54,908 nt of DNA, taken from positions 1 to 54,908 of the forward strand of contig VGTH01000037.1 in the NCBI GenBank assembly GCA_016874755.1, written 5' to 3'. Of the stretch, positions 17,798 to 44,989 are shown piece by piece. Below the pieces are notes generated by a model, which was given only the letters and a program-made list of their open reading frames with translations, searched no databases and was not told the DNA's origin. This stretch comes from Deltaproteobacteria bacterium. Lineage in GTDB: Bacteria; Desulfobacterota; Binatia; UBA9968. Numbering within the stretch: the first letter of the stretch is position 1; every line of letters begins with the position of its first letter. The position numbers were made by a program, and so were the translations under genes.

Positions 17798-17803
17798 AAA
17801 CGT

Positions 17804-17865: not shown

Positions 17866-17878
17866 AATGGAGCCCCCG

Positions 17879-20025: not shown

Positions 20026-20029
20026 ACCT
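19966..20029. repeat. Heptamer array at the bcrA-bcrD junction (unit about ACTCGAA)
   Basis: Seven-base units of the types GGGTTTC/GGGTTCA in the first half and ACTCGAA/ACGCGGA in the second half run through the last codons and stop of bcrA. Sequence and inverted layout resemble the array at 17804-17865, so the two operon spacers share one repeat family. Confidence 0.75.
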
Positions 20030-20038
20030 GGAGGTTCC

Positions 20039-22831: not shown

Positions 22832-22850
22832 CTCTGGAGCGGGTGCAGCG

Positions 22851-23630
22851 ATGTATCAAACTCTCAAATATCGCGAAGACGGCGCGGTGGCGACGATCCA
22901 GCTCGACCGGCCGGAGAAGAAAAACTCACTGAACGGCGCCATGCGTGAAGAGCTAAGCCATCTTCTCGACGAGCTGGCGAGCAAAGCGGTGATTCGCGCT
23001 GTGATTGTCACCGGCGGCGACGAGGTCTTTTGCGCCGGCGCCGACATCGGCGAGATGGGCGGGCCGGCCAACGCCGAAGCCTCCTATCATCATGCGCGGG
23101 AGTTTCAGATCCTTTTCGATAAAGTCGAATCGCTGCCACAGCCGGTGATTGCCGCGGTGTCCGGCTACGCGCTCGGCGGCGGCTGCGAGTTGGCGCTCGC
23201 CGCCGACTTTCGCTTGGCCTCAGAGAGCGCCAAATTGGGCTTGCCGGAAATTAAAATTGGCGCCTTTCCAGGCGGCGGCGGCACCCAGCGGCTGGCGCGC
23301 TTGGTCGGCATCGCCAAAGCCAAAGAGATGATCCTACTAGGCGATCCCATCGGCGCCCAAGAAGCACTTGCCGCCGGCTTGGTGATGCAAGTCGCCGCGA
23401 AAGAAAAATACTCTGACGAGGCACAAGCGCTAGCGCGCAAACTTGCTGAGCTGCCGCGCCTGGCGCTGCAAGCGTCGAAGATGCTGATCAACCGCAGCCA
23501 GAATATTGACTTGGCCACCGGACTGGAGTTCGAGGCACGCACCTTCGGCGCCATCGCGCACACCCATGACTTAGCCGAGGGGACTCGGGCTTTTCTAGAG
23601 AAGCGCAAAGCCAATTTTACCGGCACTTGA
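22851..23630 (+). CDS. Enoyl-CoA hydratase (crotonase family) of the bcr operon
   Basis: The 259-aa protein is a canonical crotonase. The oxyanion-hole region is EVFCAGADIGEM, and both catalytic glutamates of hydratases are present, in GGGCELALAADFRLA and LGLPEIKIGAFPGGGGTQRL. It should hydrate a 2,3-unsaturated acyl-CoA. In this operon the likely substrate is the dienoyl- or cyclohexenoyl-CoA made by benzoyl-CoA reductase (Dch- or BadK-type step). The start at 22851 is within a compact operon; upstream in-frame codons overlap the small cysteine protein and are not homologous. Confidence 0.82.
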   Translation: MYQTLKYREDGAVATIQLDRPEKKNSLNGAMREELSHLLDELASKAVIRAVIVTGGDEVFCAGADIGEMGGPANAEASYHHAREFQILFDKVESLPQPVIAAVSGYALGGGCELALAADFRLASESAKLGLPEIKIGAFPGGGGTQRLARLVGIAKAKEMILLGDPIGAQEALAAGLVMQVAAKEKYSDEAQALARKLAELPRLALQASKMLINRSQNIDLATGLEFEARTFGAIAHTHDLAEGTRAFLEKRKANFTGT

Positions 23631-30334: not shown

Positions 30335-31060
30335 ATGAATCATTTCTCTATGAGTGTGTCCTTAGCGGTCGCGTTGGGCATCGGCGCATATCTCAGCAGT
30401 AGTGCCGACCAACCCAATAAGGCTCTCGCGGCATCGCCTGCTGGCGCCATTTCCGGCCGCGTCGTCTTCACTGGCGATGCACCGGCAGCAAAAAAAATCA
30501 AAGTTACCAAAGACGGCGAGAAATGCGGCGCTGAAGTCACCAGCGAAGAGCTCGTTGTCGGTCCGGATAAAGGCGTCGAGTTCGCCGTGGTTAGCGTTGC
30601 CGGTTTCAAAGGCACACCGCCCAAGCCGACAAATCCATCGACCATCGATCAAAAAGGCTGCGTCTTTCGCCCGCATGTGGCTATCGTCGGCGTCGGCGCG
30701 CCGCTCGATATTTTGAACAACGACGGTATTTTGCACAATTTTCACACCCACGGCACGGAAAACACACCGATGAACCGGGCGCAGCCGGCGTTCCGAAAAA
30801 AGATGACCGAGACCTTCGCCCAAGCTGAGACCGTCAAAGTGAGCTGCGACGCCCACCCGTGGATGTCAGCCTGGGTGGTGGTCACCGACCATCCCTACAT
30901 CGATGCCACCGACAATGGCGGCAACTTCAAAATCGCCGACGTGCCGCCGGGCAATCATACAGTTGAAGTTTGGCATGAAACCCTAGGCAAGATGACCAAG
31001 ACTGTGACGGTCAAGGCGGGAGAAGAAGCGAAGGTAACTTTTGAATTGAGCAAGAAGTAG
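30335..31060 (+). CDS. Periplasmic cupredoxin-like protein with a carboxypeptidase-regulatory-like end
   Basis: The 241-aa protein has an N-terminal hydrophobic signal (about residues 5-32), then a beta-sandwich with a cupredoxin-type site. The first His lies in LHNFHTHGTEN and the Cys, His and Met in KVSCDAHPWMSAWVVVT. The C-terminal part (FKIADVPPGNHTVEVWHETLG) is a carboxypeptidase-regulatory/Ig-like segment. Such methylamine-utilisation-type plastocyanin-like proteins are thought to carry copper and electrons. The ATG at 30335 follows GAGGAGG. It lies just before the sigma-54 promoter of the Mo-enzyme operon and could be an electron partner; a terminator separates them. Confidence 0.8.
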   Translation: MNHFSMSVSLAVALGIGAYLSSSADQPNKALAASPAGAISGRVVFTGDAPAAKKIKVTKDGEKCGAEVTSEELVVGPDKGVEFAVVSVAGFKGTPPKPTNPSTIDQKGCVFRPHVAIVGVGAPLDILNNDGILHNFHTHGTENTPMNRAQPAFRKKMTETFAQAETVKVSCDAHPWMSAWVVVTDHPYIDATDNGGNFKIADVPPGNHTVEVWHETLGKMTKTVTVKAGEEAKVTFELSKK

Positions 31061-31247: not shown

Positions 31248-31263
31248 CTGGCACAACGATTGC
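31248..31263 (+). promoter_or_regulatory. Sigma-54 (-24/-12) promoter
   Basis: CTGGCACAACGATTGC matches the consensus YTGGCAC-N5-TTGC exactly. The -24 GG (31250-31251) and -12 GC (31262-31263) are 12 bases apart. The predicted start is near 31275, 35 bases before the Rrf2 gene. It would drive the Rrf2 and Mo-enzyme genes and needs a sigma-54 activator such as the one encoded at 3928-5001. Confidence 0.85.
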
Positions 31264-31309
31264 GGCTCCAAGGGAGTCAACGGACTGAAATCATCCACTG
31301 ACTCTAAGA

Positions 31310-31723
31310 ATGAAACTGGGCAAGGAAAGTCGCTATGCGATCGACGGACTGCTGGTGTTAGCCAAGAAGCGATCGGGAACCATCATGCAACTGCAAGATA
31401 TCGCCGATGCAGCCGGCGCACTAGCCAACTTCCTGGCCAAGACTTTTCAGAAACTCAACCGGGCTAACATCGTAACCTCCTCCCGCGGCGCCGTGCGCGG
31501 CTACGCCCTGGCCCGACAACCTAACGCGCTCAAAGTGAAAGATATTTTCGTCGCCGTCGAAGGCACGGATATCTTCGACCGTTGTTTGTTTTGGAGCGAC
31601 CGCTGCGCCGATGAGTCGCCCTGCCCCATGCACTTCAGGTGCAAACCGGCGCGGCGAACCATCGCAGGATTGATGCAGCGAATGACTTTAGCCGACTTGG
31701 CGGCCGACAACCGGCGCCGATGA
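31310..31723 (+). CDS. Rrf2-family transcriptional regulator with a putative Fe-S cluster
   Basis: The 137-aa winged-helix Rrf2 protein starts MKLGKESRYAIDGLLVLA, with the recognition helix near ANFLAKTFQKL and the wing SSRGAVRGYALAR. Cysteines at residues 92, 99 and 105 closely match the cluster ligands of IscR (92, 98, 104), and a fourth is at 111. It is thus likely to sense iron-sulphur state, redox or NO. It is the first gene after the sigma-54 promoter and lies 34 bases before the Mo-enzyme genes, so it probably controls this operon and itself. BadM in Rhodopseudomonas is also an Rrf2 regulator of aromatic catabolism. Confidence 0.87.
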   Translation: MKLGKESRYAIDGLLVLAKKRSGTIMQLQDIADAAGALANFLAKTFQKLNRANIVTSSRGAVRGYALARQPNALKVKDIFVAVEGTDIFDRCLFWSDRCADESPCPMHFRCKPARRTIAGLMQRMTLADLAADNRRR

Positions 31724-31757
31724 CAGATCACTGTCGATCTGAGGAAGAGAGTTCACA

Positions 31758-33338
31758 ATGAAGTTGTTTCTTTCGTTGGCCCTTGCGGTCGTACTCATCA
31801 TCGGCGGCCTCACGCTGGTCAAATCTGCGGATGTGAAGTCTCCGCCGGTGACACCGCAGCTGCTCGCCCAGGGTAAACAGATCTACGCCCAGCAATGCGC
31901 CGCCTGTCACGGCGACACGGGCCGCGGGGATGGCGAGGCGGCCTACCTGCTCTACCCCAAGCCGCGCGACTTAGTTGCCGCCAAGTATCGCCTGGTTTCT
32001 ACGTGGGACCGCGTGCCCACCGATCAGGACCTATTCGACACGATCACGCGCGGCATGCCGGGGTCCTCCATGCCCTCTTGGGCACATTTCACCATGGAGC
32101 AGCGTTGGGCGCTGGTTCACTATATCAAGACGCTGGCCGCCAAACCTCTTGTGGTTCGACCGGCTAAAGCTCCCAACGCCGAGGGGAGCGGCGGCGAAGG
32201 GATTATCCAACCACCGCCAGCTCCGCCCTACGACGCGGCGGGGCGGGCGCGCGCGCTGGAAATGTACAAAGAGGCTTGCGCGTCCTGCCACGGCGCCAAT
32301 GGCCGAGGCGATGGCACCGAGAAGCAAATAGACGAAGAAGGCTATCCAACCAGACCGCGTGATTTGACTGCCGGAATTTTCAAAGGCAGCCACGATCCGG
32401 TCTCGCTCTATCGCCATATCATAGCCGGCATTCCGGGCAGCCCGATGCCGATGAGCGATTGGGCCTGGGGCAATGATGCGTGGCACCTGGTCCACTACGT
32501 GCGCTCGCTCTCCAGTGAAACGCAGCGCGAACGCGTCGAGATGAAAAAGTTCACCATCAACGCGGTTCGCGTACAAGCGCTTCCCGATCATCCCGAGTCC
32601 GGCATCTGGCGCAGCGCGCCGCCGGTCAATTTGCACTTGATGCCGCTGTGGTGGCGCAGTGAGCGGCCCGAAGAAGTCACGGTGCGGGCGATTCACGATG
32701 GCAAGGAAGTGGCGATTCTAATGGTTTGGCAGGACGATACCGACGACACCACGGCGCTAAAACCGCAAGAGTTTCGCGACGCCGCCGCAATCCAGTTTTC
32801 GCTGACCGCCAATCCACCCTTCTTCGCCATGGGCGAGAAAACCGAGGCGGTCAACATCTGGATGTGGAAATCGGAGCGGCAAGCGGATTTAGATGTGGCA
32901 TTTCAGGAGATCGAAAAGGCCTACCCGAACGTCGGCATCGACTCTTATCCGAACCTGATGCGCTCCGCCGTGGAGCAGCCGTTTCGCCACGCGCTGACTC
33001 TGCAATCCGATCCGACCTACGTCACCGGCTGGGGCGCGGGCAATATCGTTTCCGATCCGCAGCGAAAAACTCCGGCGGAAGATCTCACCTCGCGCGGCTT
33101 CGGCACGCTGCAAGCGCGACCTAAGATCGATCAAAAAGTCGACGCCCGCGGCATTTACGGTTCGGGCTCCTACCGTGTGATGTTTCGCCGCTCGCTGGGA
33201 CGCACCGGACAAGGCGCCGTCAATTTGGTACCCGGAGCGACCGTGCCGGTCGGCTTCGCCGTCTGGAACGGCAGCGCCGGCGATCGGGATGGGAAGAAGT
33301 CGGTGACGATTTGGCAAGACTTAAGAATCAGGCCGTGA
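31758..33338 (+). CDS. Fusion of two cytochrome c domains with an ethylbenzene-dehydrogenase-type gamma subunit
   Basis: The 526-aa protein has a signal peptide (FLSLALAVVLIIGGLTLVKSA), then two cytochrome c modules with CAACH (residues 47-51) and CASCH (174-178), each followed by a Met-containing loop (MPGSSMPSW; IPGSPMPMS). Residues about 270-526 form an EB_dh/NxrC/DdhC-type haem b domain (HLMPLWWRS, FFAMGEKTEAVNIWMWKS, PVGFAVWNGSAGDRDGKKS). In known type II Mo enzymes the gamma subunit holds one haem b and passes electrons to a separate cytochrome c; here the chain is fused into one periplasmic wire. The start has a GAGGAAGAG box. Confidence 0.88.
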   Translation: MKLFLSLALAVVLIIGGLTLVKSADVKSPPVTPQLLAQGKQIYAQQCAACHGDTGRGDGEAAYLLYPKPRDLVAAKYRLVSTWDRVPTDQDLFDTITRGMPGSSMPSWAHFTMEQRWALVHYIKTLAAKPLVVRPAKAPNAEGSGGEGIIQPPPAPPYDAAGRARALEMYKEACASCHGANGRGDGTEKQIDEEGYPTRPRDLTAGIFKGSHDPVSLYRHIIAGIPGSPMPMSDWAWGNDAWHLVHYVRSLSSETQRERVEMKKFTINAVRVQALPDHPESGIWRSAPPVNLHLMPLWWRSERPEEVTVRAIHDGKEVAILMVWQDDTDDTTALKPQEFRDAAAIQFSLTANPPFFAMGEKTEAVNIWMWKSERQADLDVAFQEIEKAYPNVGIDSYPNLMRSAVEQPFRHALTLQSDPTYVTGWGAGNIVSDPQRKTPAEDLTSRGFGTLQARPKIDQKVDARGIYGSGSYRVMFRRSLGRTGQGAVNLVPGATVPVGFAVWNGSAGDRDGKKSVTIWQDLRIRP

Positions 33339-33490
33339 GGACTCAGGAGTAAGGAGTGAGGGGGGTTTCGGAATCGGATAGCGGTGAATGAAGGGGTAAT
33401 CTTTATGAGCAATAGGATTGTACGAGACGAAGTGACAAGAAGCTCCGTTGGCCGATCTCCTGACTCCTCACTCCTGACTCCTTGCTCTCC
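33339..33490. repeat. Opposed heptamer arrays flanking the alpha-subunit start (GGAGTRA and ACTCCTG)
   Basis: An array at 33339-33366 uses the unit GGAGTRA and begins right after the gamma-subunit stop. A second at 33456-33490 uses the unit ACTCCTG, which is the reverse complement type, and lies within the coding frame, giving alpha-subunit residues about 18-29. Together they could fold over the alpha start codon and ribosome site in the mRNA. Confidence 0.75.
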
Positions 33491-36400
33491 CGGCGGCGTA
33501 TCCCGCCGCGACTTCTTGAAGTTCCTCGGCATTGGCACCGGCAGCGCCGCCCTAGCGACGGGCTTGCCGTTGAATCTCCTAGCCGCCGCCAACCCCAACG
33601 ACAATCCGCTCGCCGGCGCGGTCGATCGCAACTGGGAAAAAATCTATCGCGATCAATATAAGTACGACCGCATGTTCGATTGGGTTTGCTCGCCTAACGA
33701 TACTCATGCCTGCCGGGTGCGCGCCTATGTGCGCAACGGCATCGTCACACGCCTGGGCAGCACCTACGATTATCAAAAGTACGCTGACCTCTACGGTGAT
33801 AAAGCGACAGCAAATTGGAATCCGCGCCAGTGCGCCAAAGGCTACACGTTTCACCGCGTCATCTACGGTCCTTATCGTTTGCGCCATCCGATCGTGCGCA
33901 AAGGGTGGAAGGCTTGGGCCGACGCCGGCTTCCCGGAGCTCACTCCGGAAAACAAGAAGCGCTACATGTTCGATAGCCGCGGCCAAGACGAATTCGTGCA
34001 GATCTCTTGGCCCGACGCCTTCGACTCCATCGCCAAAGCGTTGGTCGCCATCGCCGCACGCTACAGCGGTGAAGCAGGCAAGAAACTCTTGCTCGCTCAA
34101 GGCTACCAGCCCGAGATGGTCGAAGAGATGGGCGGCGCCGGCACGCGCACGGTGAAAATGCGCGGTGGCATGGGACTCTTGGGCGTCATCGGCAAGTACG
34201 GTATGTATCGGCTGAATAATTCTCTCGCGCTGCTCGATGCCAAAGTGCGCGGCGTCGGACCCGACAAAGCGCGCGCCGGGCGCAACTGGTCGAATTATAC
34301 TTGGCACGGTGATCAAGCGCCGGGCCATCCCTGGGTGCACGGCTTGCAAACTTCCGAGTGCGACTTCAACGATCTGCGCTTCTCCAAGCTGATTATCATG
34401 GACGGGAAAAATCTCGTCGAGAATAAGCTCACCGACTCGCACTGGTTCATCGAATGTATGGAGCGCGGCGCCAAGATCGTCGTCATCGCGCCCGAGTACG
34501 GGCCGCCGTCGACCAAGGCCGATTATTGGATTCCGATCCGGCCGCAGACCGACGCCGCGCTCTGGCTCGGCATCACCAAGATCATGATTGAGAAGAAGTG
34601 GTACGACGAGAACTTCGTCAAGCGCTTCACCGATTTCCCGCTGCTGGTGCGGACCGATAATCTGCGCCGGCTGCGCGCCCACGAAGTATTTCCTAATTAC
34701 AAATCGGCACTGTCCGCTGACGGGCCATCAATAAGGGTACAGGGGCTGACGGCGCAGCAGCATCAGCAGCTCGGCGATTTTGTCATCTGGGACAGCAAGA
34801 AGAATGCGCCGGCAGCGATCACCCGCGACGACGTCGGCGAAACTCTCGCAAAGAAAGGCTTGGATCCACGGCTGGAGGGAACTTTCAAGGTCAAACTCGC
34901 CGACGGCAAAGAGATCGAAGTCGCTACTCTCTGGACGCTCTACCAGACCCATTTAAAAGACTACGACCTCGACAGCGTCGCCGACATCACCCACGCGCCC
35001 AAGGCGATGATTCAACAGTTGGCAGAGGACATCGCGACCATGAAGCCGGTGGCGATCCATCAAGGCGAGGGGATCAATCACTGGTTCCACGCCACCGAGA
35101 TGAATCGCGCCGCCTACCTGCCGCTGATGCTTACCGGCAACGTCGGCAAGCCGGGCGCCGGCGGCCACACCTGGGCCGGCAACTACAAAGCCGCGCTGTT
35201 TCAAGGCTCGGCTTGGGCTGGCCCAGGCTTTAAAGGCTGGGTGGCGGAGGATCCGTTCAAGATCAATTTGAATCCCAACGCCAACGGCAAAGATATTGCG
35301 GCCACCGCCTACACTAAAGACGAAGAGCCGGCCTACTGGAACCACGGCGATCTCGCTTTGGTTGTCGACACGCCGAAATTTGGCCGCAAGAATTTTACCG
35401 GCAAGAGCCACATGCCGACGCCGACCAAGGCGATGATCTTTACCAACGTCAACTTGATCAACAACGCCAAGTGGGCCTACGGCATGATCAAGAACGTCGA
35501 CCCCAACGTCGAGATGATCGTCTCGGTCGATATTCAGATGACCGCGTCGATTGAATACTCGGACATCGCCCTGCCGGCAAACTCGTGGTTGGAATCCGAA
35601 GGCTTGGAAATCACCGCGAGCTGCTCCAACCCGTTCCTGCAAATCTGGAAAGGCGGCATCCCGCCGGTGTTCGATACCAAAGACGACGCCGACGTGCTCG
35701 CCGGCATCGCCAATGCGCTCGCCAAAGTCACCGGCGACAAGCGTTTCAGCGACTACTTCGCCTTCGCCGCACCCGATAAACGGAACGTCTACATCCAGCG
35801 TTTGCTCGACGGCTGCACGACAACCTCCGGATACAAACTAAATGACATCATGGCCGGTAAGTATGGTCCTCCGGGCGGCTGCCTGCTCAATTTCAGAACT
35901 TATCCGCGCATCCCGTTCTACGAACAGGTGCACGACAGCGAGCCCTTCTACACCGACACCGGCCGCATGCATGCCTACGCCGACGTTCCCGAAGCGATCG
36001 AGTACGGCGAGAACTTCGTCGTTCACCGCGAAGGTCCGGAAGCGACGCCCTATTTGCCCAACGTGATCGTCAGCTCGAATCCATTGATCAGGCCAGAAGA
36101 CTACGGCATACCAGCCAACGCCGAGCACTGGGACCAGCGCACCATCCGCAACATCAAAATGCCCTGGAGTAAGGTCAAGGAAACGAAAAATTTCCTCTGG
36201 GAGAAGGGCTTTCAGTTTTTCTGCCTGACTCCCAAGACGCGCCATCGCGTCCACAGCGGCTGGTCCAACGTCGACTGGCATATGCTGATGGACTCCAACT
36301 TTGGCGATCCCTATCGCATCGACAAGCGCGCCCCCTGCGTCGGCGAGCATCAGTTGCATATGAATCCACAGGCGGCGCGCGATCTCGGCATCAATGACGG

Positions 36401-36935
36401 CGACTATGTCTATGTCGACGCCAACCCCGCCGACAGGCCCTATTTGGGCGCCAAACCGGACGACCCATTCTACCGCGTCTCGCGCTGCATGCTGCGCGTC
36501 ACCTACAACCGCGCCTACCCGTACAACATCGTGATGATGAAGCATGCGCCTTTCATCGCCACGGAGAAGAGCGTCAAAGCCCACGAGACTAGGCCTGATG
36601 GCCGCGCGTTGTCGGAGAACACCGGCTATCAGGCCAACCTGCGCTACGGCTCGCAGCAGTCGGTGACGCGCAACTGGCATATGCCGATGCACCAGACCGA
36701 TACCTTGTTCCACAAGGCCAAGGTGTCGATGAGCTTTATCTTCGGCGGCGAAGCCGACAACCACGCCGTCAACACCGTCCCGAAAGAGACGCTGGTGCGC
36801 GTGACCAAAGCCGAAGATGGCGGCCTGGGTGGCAAAGGCATCTGGAAGCCGGCGACCACCGGCCATTCGCCGGATAATGAGAATGAGATGATGAAGCGGT
36901 ATTTGGCGGGCGATCTAACCAAGGTGAAGCCATGA
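33405..36935 (+). CDS. Type II DMSO-reductase-family molybdopterin alpha subunit (NarG/Nxr/Ebd-like), Tat-exported
   Basis: The 1176-aa catalytic subunit has a Tat signal SRRDFLKFLG (residues 33-42). The [4Fe-4S] FS0 motif is C95-x3-D99-x3-C103-x39-C143, with Asp where Cys is usual and Cys where His is usual. Mo-bis-PGD-binding motifs follow (NYTWHGDQAPGHPW, LTGNVGKPGAGGHTWAGNYKA, NNAKWAYGMIKNVDPNVEM). The late EYGENFVVHREGPEATPYLPN and TPKTRHRVHSGW complete the fold. Its length fits NarG and NxrA (about 1150-1250 aa) rather than EbdA (about 976). Substrates in this group include nitrate, nitrite, chlorate, selenate and hydrocarbons. The ATG at 33405 has a GAAGGGG box. Confidence 0.88.
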   Translation: MSNRIVRDEVTRSSVGRSPDSSLLTPCSPGGVSRRDFLKFLGIGTGSAALATGLPLNLLAAANPNDNPLAGAVDRNWEKIYRDQYKYDRMFDWVCSPNDTHACRVRAYVRNGIVTRLGSTYDYQKYADLYGDKATANWNPRQCAKGYTFHRVIYGPYRLRHPIVRKGWKAWADAGFPELTPENKKRYMFDSRGQDEFVQISWPDAFDSIAKALVAIAARYSGEAGKKLLLAQGYQPEMVEEMGGAGTRTVKMRGGMGLLGVIGKYGMYRLNNSLALLDAKVRGVGPDKARAGRNWSNYTWHGDQAPGHPWVHGLQTSECDFNDLRFSKLIIMDGKNLVENKLTDSHWFIECMERGAKIVVIAPEYGPPSTKADYWIPIRPQTDAALWLGITKIMIEKKWYDENFVKRFTDFPLLVRTDNLRRLRAHEVFPNYKSALSADGPSIRVQGLTAQQHQQLGDFVIWDSKKNAPAAITRDDVGETLAKKGLDPRLEGTFKVKLADGKEIEVATLWTLYQTHLKDYDLDSVADITHAPKAMIQQLAEDIATMKPVAIHQGEGINHWFHATEMNRAAYLPLMLTGNVGKPGAGGHTWAGNYKAALFQGSAWAGPGFKGWVAEDPFKINLNPNANGKDIAATAYTKDEEPAYWNHGDLALVVDTPKFGRKNFTGKSHMPTPTKAMIFTNVNLINNAKWAYGMIKNVDPNVEMIVSVDIQMTASIEYSDIALPANSWLESEGLEITASCSNPFLQIWKGGIPPVFDTKDDADVLAGIANALAKVTGDKRFSDYFAFAAPDKRNVYIQRLLDGCTTTSGYKLNDIMAGKYGPPGGCLLNFRTYPRIPFYEQVHDSEPFYTDTGRMHAYADVPEAIEYGENFVVHREGPEATPYLPNVIVSSNPLIRPEDYGIPANAEHWDQRTIRNIKMPWSKVKETKNFLWEKGFQFFCLTPKTRHRVHSGWSNVDWHMLMDSNFGDPYRIDKRAPCVGEHQLHMNPQAARDLGINDGDYVYVDANPADRPYLGAKPDDPFYRVSRCMLRVTYNRAYPYNIVMMKHAPFIATEKSVKAHETRPDGRALSENTGYQANLRYGSQQSVTRNWHMPMHQTDTLFHKAKVSMSFIFGGEADNHAVNTVPKETLVRVTKAEDGGLGGKGIWKPATTGHSPDNENEMMKRYLAGDLTKVKP

Positions 36936-36940
36936 AAACC

Positions 36941-37025
36941 CGTTCAACGGTTCAAATGCTCAAGGTTCAACGTTGAACTCCGGTTGCGAGACCTTGAACT
37001 GTTGAACCTTTGAACTTTGAACCCG
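36941..37025. repeat. Heptamer array between alpha and the small gene (GTTCAAC/CTTTGAAC units)
   Basis: Units such as GGTTCAA in the first half and CTTGAAC/TTTGAAC in the second half repeat at 7-8-base steps with opposed orientation, centred on a TTCAACGTTGAA palindrome. It fills nearly the whole spacer and would form stem-loops in the mRNA. Confidence 0.78.
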
Positions 37026-37044
37026 AGCGACGAAGGAGCGAGTG

Positions 37045-37404
37045 ATGCCCTTTAAAGATCCCGATCCCAGTGATCCCAACATGCTGGTCGGCGTGATGCT
37101 GCCGGCGGACGCCGAAGCAACCCGCGACATGGCCTACGTCTTCGCCGAAGAGTTCGCCCGCATGGGCTACACGCGCGAGCAATTGCTTTGGCTTTTCAAA
37201 AATCCTTTCTACGGCGGCGCCCACGGAGCCTATCGCTCGCTTGGTGAACAAGAAACACTTTCAATCATCGATGAATGTCTGAACGTATGGGGTAACATCA
37301 AAGTCTCTATTTTGGATTCCGCATTGCCCGCTGACCCGGAGCTCGACGATCCGAGTTCAGAATCCAAAATCGAAAATCCAAAATCTAAAATGGAAAAGGC
37401 GTGA
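37045..37404 (+). CDS. Small unknown protein between the Mo-enzyme alpha and beta genes
   Basis: The 119-aa protein has a conserved-looking acidic core: PNMLVGVMLPADAEATRDMAY, FAEEFARMGYTREQLLWLFKNPFYGGAHGAYRSLG and SIIDECLNVWG. It is helical and has no signal peptide, metal motif or membrane segment. Its last 15 or so residues (from SESKIENPK) come from a heptamer repeat and are probably not functional. The ATG at 37045 follows GAAGGAGCG. Its place between the two enzyme subunit genes suggests an assembly factor or a small subunit. I do not recognise the family. Confidence 0.65.
   Translation: MPFKDPDPSDPNMLVGVMLPADAEATRDMAYVFAEEFARMGYTREQLLWLFKNPFYGGAHGAYRSLGEQETLSIIDECLNVWGNIKVSILDSALPADPELDDPSSESKIENPKSKMEKA
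37361..37396. repeat. Heptamer array (unit AATCCAA) at the end of the small gene
   Basis: Five contiguous 7-base units of the type AATCNAA, the last with two changes, end just before the beta-subunit start. They code the C-terminal residues of the 119-aa protein and keep an open frame throughout. Confidence 0.8.
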
Positions 37405-37412
37405 AGGTAGGT

Positions 37413-38678
37413 ATGCCCAAGGTTCACAACTGGCAGATCGGCCGCGAAATGAACTATCCCTACCCGCAGGCATTTCCGCGCCGGCAGTTTGCGTTTGTCT
37501 TCAACATCAACCGCTGCATCGCTTGCCAGAGCTGCACGATGGCCTGCAAGTCGACTTGGACCTTCAGCAAAGGCCAGGAACATATGTGGTGGGCCAATGT
37601 CGAGACCAAGCCCTACGGCGGCTACCCGCAGTTTTGGGATGCGAAAATTCTCAGCCTCATGGAACAAGCCAATCCCGGCAACCAACAATGGTCGGGTCGA
37701 CCTTCCAACGATAAGAAAAAGCCCTACGGCCAATTCGACGGCAAGACCATTTACGAAGCGCAGAACATGTTGACGCCGGACAGCGCGCGCGTGTTGGGCT
37801 ACTTGCCCACCGATGAGGAATGGAACCTGCCGAATATTTTCGAGGATAATCCGGTCGGCAAGCGCGGTGTTAAAAACGAGCTCGACAAAGAAGGCACGGC
37901 GCTGCCCGAGCACAAGACATGGTTTTTCTACCTGGCGCGCATCTGCAATCATTGCAGCTACCCGGCGTGCCTGGCCGCCTGCCCGCGCAAAGCGATCTAC
38001 AAACGGCCGGAAGACGGCATCGTCTTGATCGACCAGAAAGAATGCCGCGGCTATCGCAAATGCGTCGAGGCTTGCCCGTACAAAAAAACCATGTACCGCG
38101 GCAACACACGGGTGTCGGAAAAATGCGTCGCCTGCTACCCGCGCGTCGAAGGCAAAGACCCCGAGAGCGGCGGCCAACCGATGGAGACCCGCTGTATGGC
38201 GGCCTGCATCGGCCAGATTCGCATGCAGGGCTTGGTAAAAATGAACAACGACGGCACCTGGGCCGAGGACCGCTACAATCCGCTCTACTACATGGTCCAC
38301 GTCGCCAGAGTCGCCCTGCCCCTCTACCCGCAGTTCGGCACCGAGCCGAATGGCTACTACATCCCGCCGCGCTGGGTGCCGCGCGATTACTTGAAGCAAA
38401 TGTTCGGCCCCGGCGTCGACGAGGCGATCGAGCGCTACTCGTATCCAGATCGCGAGCTACTCGCGGTCCTGCAACTGTTTCGCCGCTCGAACCGGATCAT
38501 CTTCCGCTACGAGATCAAAGAAGGACCGAAGGTTTATGAGGCGACACTGCGCGGGCGCAAAGTGACCATGTACAACGACACCGTGATCGCCTATGGCCAG
38601 GACGGCAAAGAAATTTTTAGAACGCAAGTCGAAGAGCCGGTCCACGTGCGGCCCAATAAGCATGCGAACTCGATTTAA
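37413..38678 (+). CDS. Type II DMSO-reductase-family beta subunit (NarH-like, four Fe-S clusters)
   Basis: The 421-aa electron-transfer subunit has four cysteine groups: CIACQSCTMACKSTW, CNHCSYPACLAACP, CRGYRKCVEACPYKK and CVACYP with the later ETRCMAACIG. In NarH the third group has Trp at the position of Tyr in CRGY; there it goes with a [3Fe-4S] cluster, so that cluster type is uncertain here. The length fits NxrB/NarH-like proteins better than the about 350-aa EbdB. It has no leader and would be exported with the alpha subunit by the Tat route. I prefer the ATG at 37413 over the GTG at 37401. Confidence 0.9.
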   Translation: MPKVHNWQIGREMNYPYPQAFPRRQFAFVFNINRCIACQSCTMACKSTWTFSKGQEHMWWANVETKPYGGYPQFWDAKILSLMEQANPGNQQWSGRPSNDKKKPYGQFDGKTIYEAQNMLTPDSARVLGYLPTDEEWNLPNIFEDNPVGKRGVKNELDKEGTALPEHKTWFFYLARICNHCSYPACLAACPRKAIYKRPEDGIVLIDQKECRGYRKCVEACPYKKTMYRGNTRVSEKCVACYPRVEGKDPESGGQPMETRCMAACIGQIRMQGLVKMNNDGTWAEDRYNPLYYMVHVARVALPLYPQFGTEPNGYYIPPRWVPRDYLKQMFGPGVDEAIERYSYPDRELLAVLQLFRRSNRIIFRYEIKEGPKVYEATLRGRKVTMYNDTVIAYGQDGKEIFRTQVEEPVHVRPNKHANSI

Positions 38679-38680
38679 GC

Positions 38681-38715
38681 AGCAACAGGCGTGAGGCAAC
38701 AAGCAACCGTGAAGC
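38681..38715. repeat. Heptamer array (unit GGCAACA) after the beta gene
   Basis: Five 7-base units of the type RGCAACM/GGCGTGA fill the spacer between the beta stop and the chaperone start. The unit GGCAACA also occurs, on the other strand, in the array at 1331-1365, 37 kb away. Confidence 0.7.
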
Positions 38716-38729
38716 CAAAGAGAATCTGT

Positions 38730-39560
38730 ATGAATGAAAACATAGAGAGAACCGAGATGGCAGGTGCCCCAGGCTCATCTCCATCTCAAACCGAGATCGA
38801 TTGCGCCTATTGCCGTGCGGCGATCTACAGCGCACTGGCGCTCGGCTTTCAAGAGCCTACCGACGAAACTCTGTCCCGACTGATGACACTGGACAGCCGT
38901 GCCTCTTTGGCCCATGCCGCGTCGCTACTCTACGGCGACGGCGCTGCGGAAATTACCGCGGCCATCGAGGCGCTGCCTCGTTGGCAGAGAAGCAACGCCG
39001 AAGACCTGGCAGCACGGCATCGGCTCCTGTTTGGCCATACGGCGCGTGGGGTTATTTCACCGTACGAGACCGAATACGGCAACGAAGCGTTGTTTCAACA
39101 ACCGCAGGAGTTGGGCGATCTGATGGGTTTCTATCGCGCCTTCGGCTTGACGCCCGGACAAGGCGTGCATGAACGGCCCGATCATGTCAGCTGCGAGTGC
39201 GAGTTCTTGATGTTTCTCGCTCTCAAAGAAGCCTATGGGCTGGAACAAGACGAGGGCGACATGTTGAGCGAAACCCGCAAGGCAGAAAGACTTTTCCTGC
39301 GCGATCATCTGGGCCGTTTTCTGCCGGCTTTCGCCGCCAGCCTCGATCGAGAAGATCCTGCTGGTTTCTTCGGCGCGCTGGCTCAGCTAGCGGGCCGCTT
39401 CATCGCCGCAGAGTGCGCGCGCCTGGACGTCACCCTGGGTCCGGGGAACTTGGGACTTCGCCCCGCGGAGGACAACAATGTGCCCATGGCCTGCGGTAAC
39501 GCCGGTGATTGCGCCGCCTTGGCCGGCGCCTGCGCCTCGGAGCAAGCAGAGGTCGAATGA
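38730..39560 (+). CDS. TorD/NarJ-family molybdoenzyme chaperone
   Basis: The 276-aa all-helical protein has the TorD/DmsD/NarJ pattern: CAYCRAAIYSALALGFQEPTDE at the start, LAARHRLLFGHTARGVISPYETEYG, LMGFYRAFGL, ERPDHVSCECEFLMFLALKEAYG and FLRDHLGRFLPAFA. Such chaperones bind the Tat signal and guide cofactor insertion in the alpha subunit. The C-terminus carries extra cysteines (MACGNAGDCAALAGAC) not usual for the family. The ATG at 38730 is chosen; the one at 38757 is possible. It ends in an ATGA overlap with the next gene. Confidence 0.82.
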   Translation: MNENIERTEMAGAPGSSPSQTEIDCAYCRAAIYSALALGFQEPTDETLSRLMTLDSRASLAHAASLLYGDGAAEITAAIEALPRWQRSNAEDLAARHRLLFGHTARGVISPYETEYGNEALFQQPQELGDLMGFYRAFGLTPGQGVHERPDHVSCECEFLMFLALKEAYGLEQDEGDMLSETRKAERLFLRDHLGRFLPAFAASLDREDPAGFFGALAQLAGRFIAAECARLDVTLGPGNLGLRPAEDNNVPMACGNAGDCAALAGACASEQAEVE

Positions 39561-40504
39561 GCGCCGCGCTGCCCATCCACTACGAGCCCAAGCTTGTCGA
39601 AGAAGCGGTCTTCCAAGCCGGGTACACCTCTGCGCCTGCGCAACTCAACATCGCGCGCGATCGCCTCTATGAAATCGCCGATGGTGAACAACGCGAACGC
39701 GCTTTTCAAGCCCTTTACCGAACCTGGTTTGCCAAGCTGGGATTGAGCCTGACCATCGAAAAGGCGCTGCAAGAGCAACCGCTCATCGCCGAATCCGTCG
39801 GCGCTTGCTTCGTGGTTTACGCCGCCCATGCCAAGCAGGAAGGCGCGGAGCTTTACGTGAAGGACGAGCGGCGCACCTTACGCCTCGCGCTGCGTCCGGC
39901 AGCACTGCGCAATGCTGACGCGCTGCAATCGTTTTTGCGCAAGGAACTATTTCATATCGCCGACATGCTCGATCCAGCATTCGGCTACGAGCCCACCCTG
40001 CCGAAAAGTCCCGACGGGCCGACCTACGATAATTTTATCACCCATCGCTATCGCGCGCTGTGGAACATCACGATCACCGGGCGTATCGCGCGCCGCGGCT
40101 GGCTAGCTCCGACCGCGCGAGAGGAGGCTCTGAACGAATTCATCGCGGCCTTTCCCATGCTCCAGGAAAATGGCGAAAAACTTTTCAGCCGCTTCTACGA
40201 CAGCGACCACCCGCGCCATGCGGAGCTGACCCCGTTGGCTTTCGATCCGGCCGCCACAGTGGATGGTTCGCGCCCCCATTCCGCTCAAGCGACCCATTGC
40301 CCGCTCTGCAAATTTCCCACTTACGCCTTCGAACCGGCACCGCAAAATCTCGGCGCCGACACCCAAGCCGAGATTACCGCGGACTTCCCCGATTGGTCGC
40401 CGGAAAAAGGGCTTTGCAACCAATGCGCCGATCTCTACCGCGGCCGCCGGATGTCGCTTGCCGCGTTGAAAATGCTGCCAGGCTGGCATTCGCCGACAGT
40501 TTGA
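39557..40504 (+). CDS. Unknown protein with C-terminal zinc ribbon, last gene of the Mo-enzyme operon
   Basis: The 315-aa cytoplasmic protein has a helical N-terminal part (HYEPKLVEEAVFQAGYTS, REDL-like charged helices), a central FVVYAAHAKQEGAELYV segment and FLRKELFHIADMLDPAFGYEP with a conserved-looking E-x2-H. It ends with paired CPLC (about residue 250) and CNQC (about 292) motifs that look like a zinc ribbon. It is coupled to the chaperone gene by ATGA. I do not recognise the family. The coupling to a TorD-like protein suggests a role in maturation of the Mo enzyme. Confidence 0.7.
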   Translation: MSAALPIHYEPKLVEEAVFQAGYTSAPAQLNIARDRLYEIADGEQRERAFQALYRTWFAKLGLSLTIEKALQEQPLIAESVGACFVVYAAHAKQEGAELYVKDERRTLRLALRPAALRNADALQSFLRKELFHIADMLDPAFGYEPTLPKSPDGPTYDNFITHRYRALWNITITGRIARRGWLAPTAREEALNEFIAAFPMLQENGEKLFSRFYDSDHPRHAELTPLAFDPAATVDGSRPHSAQATHCPLCKFPTYAFEPAPQNLGADTQAEITADFPDWSPEKGLCNQCADLYRGRRMSLAALKMLPGWHSPTV

Positions 40505-40554: not shown

Positions 40555-40727
40555 ATGCGAAATTTCGACGCACTCCTCGCCCAATCCTCATCCACCCACG
40601 GCCACAGCTGTGCCGGGCAAGTTTTAGGCGTGCGGATGGCAATGGTGGGGTGCCGCGAAATCGGCATCGACGAGCCGCGCGGCTGCGAAAAGTTGATCGT
40701 CTACGTCGAAATGGACCGCTGCGCCAC
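40555..40727 (+). pseudogene. N-terminal fragment of an FmdE-like protein
   Basis: About 57 codons encode HGHSCAGQVLGVRMAM and EKLIVYVEMDRCAT, the metal-binding start of FmdE-domain proteins (formylmethanofuran dehydrogenase subunit E-like). Homology stops at MDRCAT, and the frame runs on into the reverse complement of a P-type ATPase fragment. The remaining three quarters of the gene is missing. Confidence 0.75.
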
Positions 40728-41838
40728 CGCGTGGGCGGTAAGCGGATGGTCGCCGGTAATCATGATGGTTTTGACGCCGGCCCGCAGGCTGAGATCGATC
40801 GCGGTTTTCGCTTCCGGACGGGGCGGATCGATCATCCCCACCAAGCCGAGAAAGATCATGTCGCGCTCACACGCCTCGTCATCCAAAGTCACGCCGGGTC
40901 TGTAAGCCACCGCCAAGACTCGCAACGCTTCATTCGCCATGGCGCGCGCGCTGATGACGACGCTGCACGACACGCCGCAAGGCATGGCGGCGTACGCCAA
41001 AGGCGCGCGGCTGACCGCGCCACAAGCCGAGGCCAACGATCAATAGCACTACGACGATAGCCGCCCGCGCCAGCGCGTGGCCGACGCGATCGAGATTCTG
41101 CTGCAGCGGCGTCTTGCCGCTCTCAACCGTCTGCCGGAGCCGCGCGATCTTGCCAAACTCCGTCTGCATGCCGGTGGCAACCACCACCGCGCGGCGCCGC
41201 CCATAGGTCGCCGCGGTGCCGGCAAAGGCCATATTCCTGCGATCGCCCACCGCGACATCGACGGCGCCAAGTGCCGCCATATGCTTTTCCACCGGCAGCG
41301 ATTCACCGGTGGGCGACGCTTCTTCGATTTTCAAGTTAAACGCTTCCAGGAGCCGCGTATCGGCCGGAATGCCGTCGCCGGTGTGCAAGAGAACGATATC
41401 TCCCGGCACGAGCTGGCGCGCCGCAAGGCTGCGCTCCTCGCCGTCGCGCACCACGGTCGCGGCCGGCGCCGCCATGCGACGGAGCGCCTCCATGGCCCGC
41501 TCGGCGCGGTACTCCTGGACGAAGCCCAACAGCACGGCAAACAGCACGATGATCGCGATGGCGATCGCTTCGACGGTGTGGCCGAGAAAGAGCGACAGGA
41601 TGACCGCCACCAGCAGAATCACAATTAGAACATTCTTGAATTGCGCCATCAGCAGATGCAGCGGCGCAACCCGCGCCACCGCTTGCAGCTCGTTGGGACC
41701 TTGCTCGGCCAAGCGGCGCTGCGCCTCCGCTTCAGTCAAGCCGCCAGCGGCATCGCTGCAGAATTGGGTCAGCACTGCGCTGGGCTCCAATTGGTGCCAA
41801 GGCGTCCCATTGATCGGCGCGGCAGGCATGTTGTGCAT
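40728..41838 (-). pseudogene. P-type (Ca2+-type) cation ATPase with internal deletion and lost C-terminus
   Basis: The N-terminal 270 codons are intact: HQLEPSAVLTQFCSDAAGGLTEAEAQRRL, the A-domain TGES motif (EEASPTGESLPVE), TM1-2 and the start of TM3. Then the sequence jumps, with a frame change near 41030, to a piece of the P domain (ANEALRVLAVAYRP, TIMITGDHPLTAHAVA). The phosphorylation motif DKTGT and the whole nucleotide-binding domain are absent, and everything after TGDHPLTA is lost at the junction with the FmdE fragment. It cannot work as a pump. Confidence 0.87.
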
Positions 41839-42046
41839 TTGGGTCTGAGCTCCTGGCCTGGAAGCGGGCAAAGGCTAAGCCAGCAATGTCACAAGCGAAG
41901 GGCGCGCGTATTATCACAAATGAGATGCACGGCGATTTTTTTCGCACGACCGAGACGCCTGTGCATCGGCTGGTGCGATGGAGGGTCCGGTGGCGCTGCG
42001 TCATCTGCTAACGGTTACAATGGCTGAGACAGCCCCCACCGGGCGG

Positions 42047-42760: not shown

Positions 42761-44989
42761 TCACTTCGCGCCGTTGAGCGCCTCGTAGATTTTCTCCGCA
42801 GTGATCGGCAGGCTGGTGATGCGCACGCCGCAGGCGTCCGCCACCGCGTTGGCGATCGCCGCCGCGGTCGGCACGTTGGCGGTCTCGCCGATCGGCATGC
42901 TGGCGTAGGGCCCAGCGCCCTTTTCACGCTCGAAGACCGAGCTGCGAAACGTCGGCACGTCTTTGATGGTGGGAATCTTGTACTCGCCGAAGTTAGCGGT
43001 CGCGACTTTGCCGTCGTTGATGGTGACTTGCTCCATCAGCGCATAGCCGATGCCGGTCATCGCCGCGCCTTCGATCTGCCCCTGGTGCATGAGCGGGTTT
43101 AACACCGTGCCGCCGTTGTGCGTCGAGGTGAATTTTCTCAGCTGCACTTGGCCGGTGGCCGGATCGACTTCCACCTCGGCGATCTGCACGCACATCGACG
43201 CTTCGTGGACCTTCTTGTTGTTGTCGTAGGTCGCTTCGACGCGAATCGGCCCGCCGTTAGCTTTGACCAAGTCAGCATAGGACAAGCGCCGCTCCATGCG
43301 TGGATGGAGCACCGCACCCTTGGCAAGCTGCATCTGCGCCGCATCGCCGCCCATCTGGCTCGCCGCAGCCTGCTTCACCGCTTCGGTGAGCTTGAGCGCG
43401 GCTTGATAGCCGGCGTTGCCGTAGACACGCGTGGCGCGGCTGCCGCCGACGCCGGTGTCTTTGACGCCGTCTTGAGTATTCAATTGTTGAAAACGAATTT
43501 GGCTGAGCGGAACCTTCAGCTCTTCGGCGACGATCTCGCTCAGCACGGTGTAAGTGCCCGCGCCCTGATCGGCCATAGCGGAGGAGATTGTCACCAAGCC
43601 CTTGTCGTCGAGCGTCAGCGCCACCGTGCCGATGCCGCCGTTGGCCATCCATTGGACAAAGGCCACGCCGCGGCCGATGTTTTTCCCTTTGGGCCGGTTG
43701 TAGCCGGAGTCTTCCAGCGCCTGTTTGAGCGTCTCTTCGGTTTTGATGTAGCCGACCTCTTCGCCGATGGGGTCGATGTCGCCGTCATGCATCAAATTTT
43801 TCTGGCGGAACTTGAGCGGGTCGATGCCGAGCTTTTTCGCCACGATGTCGAGATGGCTTTCGTTGGCGAAAAACCCTTGCGGATCGCCCGGCGAGCGCAT
43901 GTGGCCGCAGGGAACCTTGTTGGTGTAGACCATGTGCTCTTCGATCAAGCAGTGTGAAATCTTGTAGGGACCGGCCGAACCGTGCGGGCCGGCGAGAAAC
44001 GCGTTCGGTTTGAAGGCGCCATAGGCACCACTGTCGAAGACAAAATCCATGTGATGGGCGACGATAGTACCGTCTTTTTTCACACCGGTTTTGACTTTGA
44101 TGATCGAGGCGTGGCGCGGGTTGCCGGCGATAAACTCTTCTTCGTAGTCCATCACCAACTTGACCGGCCTGCCGGCCGCCTTGGAGAGCAAGTAAACCAC
44201 CGCGACGTCCATAAAGTCGCCCTTGCCGCCGAAATCGCCGCCGATGAAAACCGGATTGACGACCAATTTTTCATGGGGCAATTGCAACGCGTTGCCGACC
44301 TGCTCGCGAATCGCGAAGGGCACTTTGCTGCAGCACCAGATCTGCGCTGAGCCGTCGGTCTTGGTGTCGACGATGCAGGAATGCGGTTCGATGTAAGCGT
44401 GGTGCACCACTGGCGTGGTGAAGGTGTTCTCAAAAACCATGTCAGCTTGAGCAAAGCCAGTGGCGATGTCGCCCTTCTTCCAGGTGTAGTAGACGAACTC
44501 GTTGGTCGGGCCGTCGAGCGGCTTGGGCAAACCCTTGTAGCTAGCAACGTCAGGGTGGATTCTCTTCGAGCCGGGCCTGAGGGCTTCGACGGGATCGAGT
44601 AGCGGCTCGCTCTCTTGGTACTCGATCTCGATCAGGTTCAGCGCCTCTTCGGCTATATCCTCGGTCTCCGCCGCGACGGCAGCGATTTTTTCGCCGGCAA
44701 AGCGAACTTCGTCGTCGGCGATGATCGGCATGTCGTAGAGGCGCCGGCCGATTTTCAAACCGCGGCAATCGGCGCCGGTGAGCACGGCGTGCACGCCCTT
44801 CAAAGCGCGCGCCTTGCTGATGTCGATGTTTTTGATTTTGCCCGACGGCACCTGGCTGCGCAGCAATTTGCCCCACAGCATGCCGGGCAGCGTCACGTCG
44901 ACGGTGTATTTCGCCTGACCGCTGACCTTCAACTCACCTTCGATTCTCGGCGTGGGGTTACCGATGAACTGTTTGCCTGCTGCTGCCAT
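42761..44989 (-). CDS. Xanthine dehydrogenase-family molybdopterin-binding large subunit (orphan)
   Basis: The 742-aa protein is a full-length Mo-binding large subunit. It has PTPRIEGELKVSGQAKYTVDV at the start, NPVFIGGDFGGKGDF, HMRSPGDPQGFFANE with the conserved Arg, GGSRATRVYGNAG, and the catalytic Glu in MPIGETANVPTAAAIANAV. Enzymes of this family hydroxylate or dehydroxylate heterocycles, aldehydes or CoA-bound phenols. The 2Fe-2S and FAD subunits normally encoded next to it are missing from the window. Relatives include 4-hydroxybenzoyl-CoA reductase HcrA and CO dehydrogenase-like proteins, but I cannot assign a substrate. Confidence 0.88.
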   Translation of the reverse strand: MAAAGKQFIGNPTPRIEGELKVSGQAKYTVDVTLPGMLWGKLLRSQVPSGKIKNIDISKARALKGVHAVLTGADCRGLKIGRRLYDMPIIADDEVRFAGEKIAAVAAETEDIAEEALNLIEIEYQESEPLLDPVEALRPGSKRIHPDVASYKGLPKPLDGPTNEFVYYTWKKGDIATGFAQADMVFENTFTTPVVHHAYIEPHSCIVDTKTDGSAQIWCCSKVPFAIREQVGNALQLPHEKLVVNPVFIGGDFGGKGDFMDVAVVYLLSKAAGRPVKLVMDYEEEFIAGNPRHASIIKVKTGVKKDGTIVAHHMDFVFDSGAYGAFKPNAFLAGPHGSAGPYKISHCLIEEHMVYTNKVPCGHMRSPGDPQGFFANESHLDIVAKKLGIDPLKFRQKNLMHDGDIDPIGEEVGYIKTEETLKQALEDSGYNRPKGKNIGRGVAFVQWMANGGIGTVALTLDDKGLVTISSAMADQGAGTYTVLSEIVAEELKVPLSQIRFQQLNTQDGVKDTGVGGSRATRVYGNAGYQAALKLTEAVKQAAASQMGGDAAQMQLAKGAVLHPRMERRLSYADLVKANGGPIRVEATYDNNKKVHEASMCVQIAEVEVDPATGQVQLRKFTSTHNGGTVLNPLMHQGQIEGAAMTGIGYALMEQVTINDGKVATANFGEYKIPTIKDVPTFRSSVFEREKGAGPYASMPIGETANVPTAAAIANAVADACGVRITSLPITAEKIYEALNGAK

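Follow-up and report, generated by a model that had tools for sequence, protein, structure and literature searches.

The window considered here, a 54,908-nucleotide stretch of contig VGTH01000037.1 in assembly GCA_016874755.1 (Deltaproteobacteria bacterium; Desulfobacterota; Binatia; UBA9968), belongs to a genome that is 99.55% complete (G000). It carries on its forward strand a run of seven genes (31310-40504) that very probably encode a periplasmic nitrite oxidoreductase (NXR) of the anammox/Nitrospira type, with a gamma subunit in which a haem b domain is fused to a dihaem cytochrome c. The junctions between these genes overlap or span at most ~110 bases, an arrangement as in one operon, and every gene was found at the position assigned to it by a first-pass annotation of the DNA. 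Two of the products, here called X and Y, have no match in Pfam or NCBIfam. The genes are, in order:

31310-31723, + strand: Rrf2-family regulator, 137 residues (PF02082, 1.6e-24)
31758-33338, + strand: putative fused NXR gamma subunit, 526 residues (Pfam Cytochrom_C, best stretch 37-126; EB_dh 283-515, 5.4e-23)
33405-36935, + strand: putative NXR alpha subunit (NxrA), the molybdenum-bis(molybdopterin guanine dinucleotide) (Mo-bisMGD) catalytic subunit, 1176 residues, with a twin-arginine translocation (Tat) signal
37045-37404, + strand: X, a small helical protein of 119 residues
37401-38678, + strand: putative NXR beta subunit (NxrB), NarH-like, four iron-sulfur (Fe-S) clusters expected
38757-39560, + strand: TorD/NarJ-family chaperone (PF02613, 5.4e-20)
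39557-40504, + strand: Y, 315 residues, with two C-terminal CxxC pairs

Catalytic and gamma subunits

In a search of solved structures the alpha subunit matches Kuenenia NXR-A (7b04_B) with 1800.9 bits (E=0, residues 33-1174), followed by 4ydd, a type II enzyme that we take to be perchlorate reductase (202 bits), ethylbenzene dehydrogenase (EBDH, 172.7 bits) and NarG (~106-113 bits). The beta subunit matches Kuenenia NXR-B (7b04_A) with 604.5 bits (E 1.1e-180). Together with the Tat signal on alpha (TIGR01409, above cut-off), these scores bear out the earlier description of the locus as an operon for a Tat-exported Mo enzyme of the type II dimethyl sulfoxide reductase family, of NXR/NarG size. 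Alpha is 64.3% identical to Kuenenia NxrA over 1147 columns, and the published identity between Kuenenia NXR-A and the enzymes of nitrite-oxidising bacteria and comammox organisms is ~60% (PMC8387239; this and all other papers cited are drawn on in excerpt), so that the window alpha lies about as near to the Kuenenia subunit as established NXRs do.

All six of the functional residues tested are retained: the Mo-ligand Asp (D303, Kuenenia D275), the substrate Asn (N98, Kuenenia N70) and the ligands of cluster FS0 (C95, D99, C103 and C143, Kuenenia C67, D71, C75 and C115), whose roles, including the coordination of FS0 by three Cys and one Asp, are those described for the Kuenenia enzyme (PMC8387239). 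Across an alignment of 144 alpha rows of NXR type, in which several genomes are present twice, the N70 position is Asn in 139 rows and gapped in 5, while the D275 position is Asp in all 144. The models for other branches of the family fall far short of their cut-offs, the NarG equivalog TIGR01580 scoring 150 bits against 1084 and NF042978 187 bits against 2000. The EbdA-type active site was not found either: Asn98 and Cys95 are present, whereas EBDH has an Ile at the Asn70 position and a His ligand to FS0 (PMC8387239).

The gamma subunit begins with a signal-peptide-like stretch (by eye) and combines two CXXCH motifs, a Cytochrom_C match and an EB_dh domain in one polypeptide; the cytochrome c-haem b fusion proposed for it in the first-pass annotation is accordingly real, and the protein should carry three haems (two c and one b). 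Residues 34-252 match a two-haem cytochrome (6h5l_B, presumably a Kuenenia protein; 130.9 bits), while residues 307-522 match NXR-C (7b04_C, 106.9 bits), where Met155 and Lys305 correspond to M358 and K514, the predicted haem b ligands. The Met is kept in 57 of 57 aligned gamma domains and the Lys in 56.

Separate gamma subunits, which had been taken as the pattern for known enzymes including periplasmic NXR, are no general rule. Nitrospina alt_NxrC copies combine 1-3 c haems with a haem b domain (PMC3578206), Nitrospira moscoviensis has a dihaem alt_NxrC_2 (PMC6606698), and the Kuenenia nxr region itself holds a fused alt_NxrC (L177 7055-8695, 547 residues, two CXXCH and EB_dh) to which window gamma residues 1-519 are 29% identical (BLASTP 2.8e-64). 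The EB_dh part of the unfused Kuenenia NxrC (326 residues, no CXXCH) gives 3.2e-31. For these comparisons single window sequences were searched by BLASTP against the open frames of 11 anammox-type loci, a small set that defines the E-values; single sequences were preferred because earlier profiles had been built partly from anammox rows themselves. L139 and L177 were taken as Kuenenia because they match a stretch of 100 residues in 7b04_B with 100% identity, and the remaining loci (78-97% identical to the same stretch) were assigned by this stretch and the tree. A C-terminal transmembrane helix of the alt_NxrC_2 type was not found, the EB_dh matches ending at residues 515-522 of 526. The fused layout is already known as alt_NxrC and is not new; with alpha and beta of NXR type and a Y homologue beside Kuenenia nxrA, the view that the whole combination is undescribed is not supported.

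What stands out in the window is X and the placement of gamma, which immediately precedes alpha and is the sole EB_dh protein detected in G000; a single EB_dh place was likewise found in 7 of 16 non-anammox genomes tested (G000 included). The papers excerpted leave undecided what alt_NxrC does in Nitrospira, in Nitrospina and in anammox bacteria (among them PMC3578206 and PMC6606698), and the occurrence of an alt_NxrC-like protein that is adjacent to alpha and apparently the only gamma in G000 argues for direct docking on NxrAB. A larger relative of the fused gamma lies upstream of the nxr cassette in a Methylomirabilota locus (L016 4242-7298), as a 1019-residue frame with three CXXCH and EB_dh in which the haem b Lys is replaced by Phe.

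Cassette distribution and the alpha tree

A scan of genome contigs with alpha yielded 214 stretches, the best 80 of which (69-91% identity) were used as loci. Their records are nearly all metagenome-assembled genomes (MAGs) with phylum labels as deposited, in which binning errors are possible. The labels cover more than 10 phyla in all: Deltaproteobacteria, Methylomirabilota, Rokubacteria/Rokuibacteriota, Acidobacteria, Latescibacterota, Neomarinimicrobiota, Gemmatimonadetes, Omnitrophota, Planctomycetota, Verrucomicrobia, Hydrogenedentota, Sumerlaeota and others. The gene set gamma-alpha-X-beta-TorD-Y, for which a check in other genomes had been proposed, is kept there. Where at least 2 kb of upstream sequence was available (n=66), a fused gamma lies upstream of alpha in 65 loci, the exception (L072) showing one CXXCH; where at least 6.5 kb was available downstream (n=56), the exact order X-beta-TorD-Y recurs in 52, and the other four each lack one detected member (L080, counted without X, does give an X match in other scans). 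X homologues were found in 78 of the 80 loci; the contigs of the remaining two stop 2 and 78 bases past the alpha frame. Anammox rows were covered only downstream of alpha, and blanks there reflect a different gene order.

Closer to the window, alpha matches at E <=1e-100 occur in 18 of 58 genomes of its relatives (its own included) and are either 82-94% or 40-43% identical; in the phylum of L066 (labelled Planctomycetota) 87 of 392 sampled genomes hold an alpha relative. The 40-43% matches represent a second NXR/NAR-type alpha in the same family and class (L165-L169, in G012, G009, G008, G007 and G043, and L100-L107), which in several cases adjoins a cytochrome frame with 6-7 CXXCH and has an unfused gamma where the locus is long enough. 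One scan of viral contigs gave no NXR match, and among 321 matching plasmid records none reached 60% identity; the four best plasmid places covering most of alpha are haloarchaeal (31-38% identity). NXR homologues in diverse MAGs have been published (PMC10732223; PMC9562985), and the prefixes OFTM and nzgw of those studies recur in the MAG names of some of the 80 loci. Judged by these names, the alpha subunits of such loci have probably been published as NxrA homologues, so that the window alpha is probably not new as a type. A description of the fused-gamma operon or of X was not found in excerpts of the open-licence PMC literature, supplements excluded (including PMC8026999, PMC6050957 and PMC8141241).

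In an alpha tree of 39 of the 161 alpha rows (root assumed; a 70-row tree agrees), the window alpha joins its nearest relatives (100/99) and then rows labelled Acidobacteria, Methylomirabilota, Latescibacterota and Planctomycetota, among others (100/100). Six anammox-type rows lie within this clade, inside a 33-row group (94/66) and a 36-row group (100/100), from which the 41-45% identical alpha type stands apart. The first-pass annotation had held that its case for novelty would fail if alpha fell firmly within a characterised clade already having the same fused gamma and accessory genes, and an alpha of NXR type, with a fused alt_NxrC and a Y homologue in the Kuenenia nxr region, is largely that outcome. 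NXR-A of anammox bacteria, Nitrospirota and Nitrospinota have been reported to group together (PMC12758564).

The anammox-type rows stand beside two rows from the Planctomycetota sample (L121 and L122; 89/94, and 94 in the 70-row tree), whose clusters (L147 and L148) contain X and a fused gamma. Three loci in which the fused gamma immediately precedes alpha (L150, L151 and L152) branch below anammox plus L121/L122 (100/100). If this branching is taken at face value, the fused gamma would have come first, the unfused NxrC of anammox bacteria being derived. The inner supports are moderate, and a single group of the 27 named fused/X rows (among them L118, without detected X) apart from anammox is not recovered in the best tree but is not rejected either (p-AU, approximately unbiased test, 0.267). 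In the gamma tree, for which 7 long or fragmentary rows were dropped from a 57-row alignment, holding fused and alt forms together is likewise not rejected (p-AU 0.441). Loci L147, L148 and L149, nearest to or below anammox NXR, have Y directly before alpha as in anammox and retain X and the fused gamma, which is placed after beta in L147/L148 and before Y in L149.

A tentative joint reading, which on balance we regard as doubtful in its entirety, is that a six-gene NXR module has spread over more than 10 phyla of mostly uncultured, often oxidase-bearing hosts from groundwater, soil and sediment. The fused gamma would be its ancestral electron exit, linking haem b with two c haems in a single chain. 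X and Y would be assembly proteins specific to NXR and not yet described, and Y would have a degenerate fold resembling that of proteases. Anammox bacteria would later have moved or lost the gamma fusion and X, leaving alt_NxrC as a relic beside the unfused NxrC.

Reaction, accessory proteins and genomic setting

From homology, residue conservation, gene order and the single EB_dh protein, all of them observed, a scheme for the reaction, electron path, localisation, regulation and roles of X and Y can be proposed. Alpha would be exported by Tat, with beta probably hitch-hiking, and would interconvert nitrite and nitrate at Mo-bisMGD. Electrons would pass through FS0-FS4 in alpha and beta to the EB_dh domain with its Met/Lys haem b, on to the two c haems of the same polypeptide, and from there via a soluble or membrane cytochrome to an aa3-like oxidase, the path running in reverse for nitrate reduction. 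TorD would insert the Mo cofactor; Y is probably a dedicated maturation factor, and X is probably either a small subunit or a further assembly factor. Rrf2 may tune expression to the Fe-S, nitric oxide (NO) or redox state.

As to direction, we lean slightly towards an aerobic heterotroph that gains additional energy by oxidising nitrite. G000 has one COX1 protein, close to aa3-type models and just below the TIGR02891 cut-off. In 43 cassette genomes selected from the 80 loci, a COX1-family match was found in 42 and lies above the curated cut-off in 41, the family including NO reductases. As a candidate for NirS, a cytochrome-d1-family match in G000 is above the Pfam cut-off but weak (35.5 bits; a second piece, with neighbours in frame, 75.3). 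Such features fit aerobic heterotrophs to which nitrite could serve as an additional electron donor, or which could turn to nitrate reduction at low oxygen.

Several observations count against the assignment as a nitrite-oxidising NXR with the fused protein as its gamma. The trees contain neither Nitrospira nor Nitrospina, so that the NXR claim leans on Kuenenia and on published statements, and the FS0 Asp position reads Cys in 3 of the 144 alpha rows. In 9 of the 16 non-anammox genomes tested there are 2-4 EB_dh places (two of three in G040 may be one gene), and a sole gamma is not general. The clusters of L121 and L122 have gamma after beta and not before alpha, and the gamma-domain tree does not fix the order of fused gamma, anammox NxrC and alt_NxrC, the fused rows forming one group at 76/23. 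Finally, G000 gave no match to RuBisCO or NirK and is not obviously an autotrophic nitrifier; the complex could reduce nitrate or play a minor role.

The first of these alternatives, a physiological periplasmic nitrate reductase in low-oxygen groundwater or sediment, in which cytochromes would feed the c haems, haem b and alpha in turn with no net nitrite oxidation, is in our view a substantial possibility, if short of an even chance. Kuenenia NXR works in both directions in vitro (PMC8387239). In one published tree the nitrate reducers Thermogutta and Methanoperedens fall in the same large clade. The other Mo-enzyme frames of G000 (755-974 residues) include none of NarG size, so that the NXR could be its nitrate reductase; the lack of RuBisCO and NirK matches points the same way, and the cytochrome-d1-family match leaves room for nitrite reduction downstream. 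Against this, the high-potential Met/Lys haem b and the c haems would suit a high-potential partner better than quinol, and 41 of the 43 cassette genomes have COX1-family matches above cut-off, yet the family includes NO reductases, and an oxidase would be compatible with either direction.

Throughout the clade X keeps its place between nxrA and nxrB, while no homologue was found in the eight anammox-type clusters examined (profile and BLASTP, best E 2.9). Its AlphaFold model is helical (predicted local distance difference test, pLDDT, 83.3; predicted template modelling score, pTM, 0.62). Relatives of X gave no convincing Pfam or PDB match (PDB best E 0.1) and weak fold matches. A relation to Pfam Recombinase, seen in 2 of 73 members (best E 0.0073), was rejected as chance.

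Y homologues, by contrast, stand beside nxrA in all eight of these anammox-type clusters, which also contain TorD homologues. In Kuenenia the Y homologue adjoins nxrA (L139 12189-13157; 29% identity over 319 columns, BLASTP 1.7e-41), and the TorD homologue of the same cluster matches with 1.1e-32 (window TorD against TIGR03482: 2.9e-26, below the curated cut-off). Kuenenia, Nitrospira and Nitrospina are reported to have in common a TorD-like chaperone, a putative zinc finger protein and two cupredoxin-like proteins (PMC3578206); we infer that the zinc finger protein is Y. The description of X and Y as two unknown accessory proteins thus holds in that neither belongs to a named family, and fails in that the zinc-ribbon protein Y has an anammox nxr homologue.

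The AlphaFold model of Y (pLDDT 93.4) was compared with known folds. Its best Foldseek match to a zincin (4l7a, E 0.015) is weak, at the level of common chance matches. The same applies to structure comparison (VIA), with Z at most 5.3 (root-mean-square deviation 4.0, 155 aligned), a designed filament tying at 5.3, and Z of 4.5-5.0 for leukotriene A4 (LTA4) hydrolase chains and 4.9 for 6mdx. Sequence searches with Y found no relative of known family. In 96 rows (the window plus 95 loci scoring >60, some genomes twice), an HExxH-like stretch has its first His in 67 (Arg in 17 and Lys in 2 including the window, which reads KELFH), Glu in 92 and the second His in 84, followed by Asp in 95. The four C-terminal Cys (CxxC...CxxC) are present in 75-77 rows, most others being gapped there. 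Y may carry a C-terminal zinc ribbon and possibly a zincin-like domain with a degenerate HExxH-type motif; our hypothesis is a degenerate zincin-like maturation factor.

That X and Y are instead structural subunits or regulators, with X for example capping the alpha-beta interface or replacing the tubule subunit NXR-T, appears rather unlikely. X is small and helical and occurs in nearly every locus of the clade, yet was not found in the anammox-type clusters, and Kuenenia has NXR-T instead (PMC8387239). However, no signal peptide is apparent by eye on X or Y, which makes both probably cytoplasmic, Y has the zinc ribbon and occurs in the anammox cluster too, and the purified Kuenenia complex consists of the A, B and C subunits (PMC8387239).

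Upstream of the operon lie three further features:

30335-31060, + strand: cupredoxin-like secreted protein (P0008), 241 residues
31088-31127, + strand: intrinsic-terminator-like hairpin, CGCCGAGC...GCTCGGCG then TTTTTT, between the cupredoxin and Rrf2 genes, read from the sequence
31249-31263, + strand: sigma-54-like -24/-12 site TGGCACAACGATTGC, a pattern match to TGGC-N7-TTGC

The cupredoxin-like gene, outside the stretch described in the first-pass annotation, is probably its own transcription unit and probably belongs with the NXR system. Among the anammox-type loci its closest BLASTP match lies higher up in the Kuenenia nxr region (L177 12794-13567, 1.3e-48), and a gene beside nxrA matches less well (L139 7853-8647, 1.1e-22); amicyanin and CarboxypepD_reg family matches are weak. 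Of the proposed sigma-54/Rrf2 control the Rrf2 gene is confirmed. The regulator is probably of the Fe-S type. Of the 63 relatives whose sequence extends 3 kb or more upstream, 17 have an Rrf2 gene no further than 4.5 kb upstream, so that the regulator appears to be part of the operon in a portion of the clade. The sigma-54 part is weaker and was rejected: the consensus has 9 matches in the whole window against 3.56 expected (1 of 100 shuffles reaches as many), and upstream of the relatives' operons it was found in 3 of 70 loci against 0.8 expected, and in 0 of 19 with Rrf2 first. Further matches lie at 30276, before the cupredoxin gene, and twice at 16268-16602, at the benzoyl-CoA-reductase-type genes. 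Three low-complexity spacers were noted by eye within the operon: GGACTC/GAGTCC-like repeats around the alpha start (33340-33490), which form part of the N-terminal extension of alpha, GTTCAA/TTGAAC repeats between alpha and X (36940-37035), and AATCCAAAATC repeats (37345-37396) that encode the non-conserved tail of X.

Elsewhere in the window, two HGD-D and two BcrAD/BadFG-ATPase genes stand in a row at 16574-20863 and make up either a benzoyl-CoA reductase of BcrABCD type or a 2-hydroxyacyl-CoA dehydratase; a gene of the enoyl-CoA hydratase family lies at 22698-23627. The xanthine-dehydrogenase-family Mo protein at 42764-44989 (MoCoBD_1/2) is a Mo-hydroxylase large subunit and not a benzoyl-CoA reductase. 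An apparently broken P-type cation ATPase (40933-41871) has N-terminal and E1-E2 domains only in its frame, a further ATPase-like stretch lying in another frame at 40701-41036 (by eye). Three NMT1/THI5-like periplasmic binding proteins are encoded at 13581-14612, 52420-53373 and 53516-54661. The benzoyl-CoA-reductase setting from which a hydrocarbon or aromatic substrate had been proposed is real, and a new dehydrogenase of EBDH/Ddh/Clr type could further point to the EB_dh domain in gamma and to the fact that a nitrate-type substrate is itself read from sequence, but we reject it as very improbable, since alpha scores 172.7 bits with EBDH against 1800.9 with NXR-A, the substrate Asn and FS0 Cys/Asp are of NXR type where EBDH has Ile and a His ligand, widely differing genomes contain the cassette, which has Y and TorD in common with the Kuenenia nxr cluster, and the aromatic genes lie ~10 kb off.

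Comparison with known systems

The subunit make-up and electron exit of NXR are open questions, the path in the Kuenenia NXR-ABC structure ending at haem b (PMC8387239). The window makes docking of gamma on NxrAB testable in one expression construct and points to two conserved accessory proteins, and its near-invariant cassette may reveal heterotrophs that are cryptic nitrite oxidisers or nitrate reducers more reliably than nxrA alone.

The closest system is the NXR of Kuenenia stuttgartiensis (kustd1699-1713; 7b04), which resembles the window in alpha (64%), the catalytic and FS0 ligands, beta and the Met/Lys haem b, and whose cluster also has TorD, a Y homologue, cupredoxins and, in the region, an alt_NxrC with dihaem c and EB_dh. 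It differs in that its unfused gamma (326 residues, no CXXCH) stands beside beta, whereas the window's fused gamma stands beside alpha, in its order NxrC-NxrB-TorD-Y-NxrA-cupredoxin as against gamma-alpha-X-beta-TorD-Y, and in that no homologue of X was found. The alphas of the Planctomycetota (Oslofjord tunnel) and New Zealand groundwater MAGs are, by their OFTM/nzgw names, probably among those collected here (PMC10732223; PMC9562985), the fused gamma, X and Y not being described in the excerpts of those papers, supplements excluded.

Among more distant systems, alt_nxrC_2 of Nitrospira moscoviensis likewise combines a signal peptide with a dihaem cytochrome c (PMC6606698), and alt_NxrC of Nitrospina gracilis combines 1-3 c-haem sites with a haem b domain in one protein (PMC3578206). 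In Nitrospira, however, the gamma candidates lie apart from nxrAB, in Nitrospina they are present besides the operon's own NxrC, and alt_NxrC_2 has a C-terminal transmembrane helix where the window EB_dh match ends 4-11 residues before the C-terminus. EbdABCD has the type II family and an EB_dh-fold gamma with Met/Lys haem b in common with the window, but its gamma is separate and without a c-type domain, its alpha gives 172.7 bits, and its FS0 and substrate residues are different. The NXR/NAR of Nitrotoga/Hydrogenobaculum type is a periplasmic relative, to which the 40-43% identical alphas of the window's family, mostly second copies, probably belong, judged by their identity level and the ~40% reported (PMC8387239). 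Unlike the window cassette, this second type sits with a cytochrome frame of 6-7 CXXCH and an unfused gamma.

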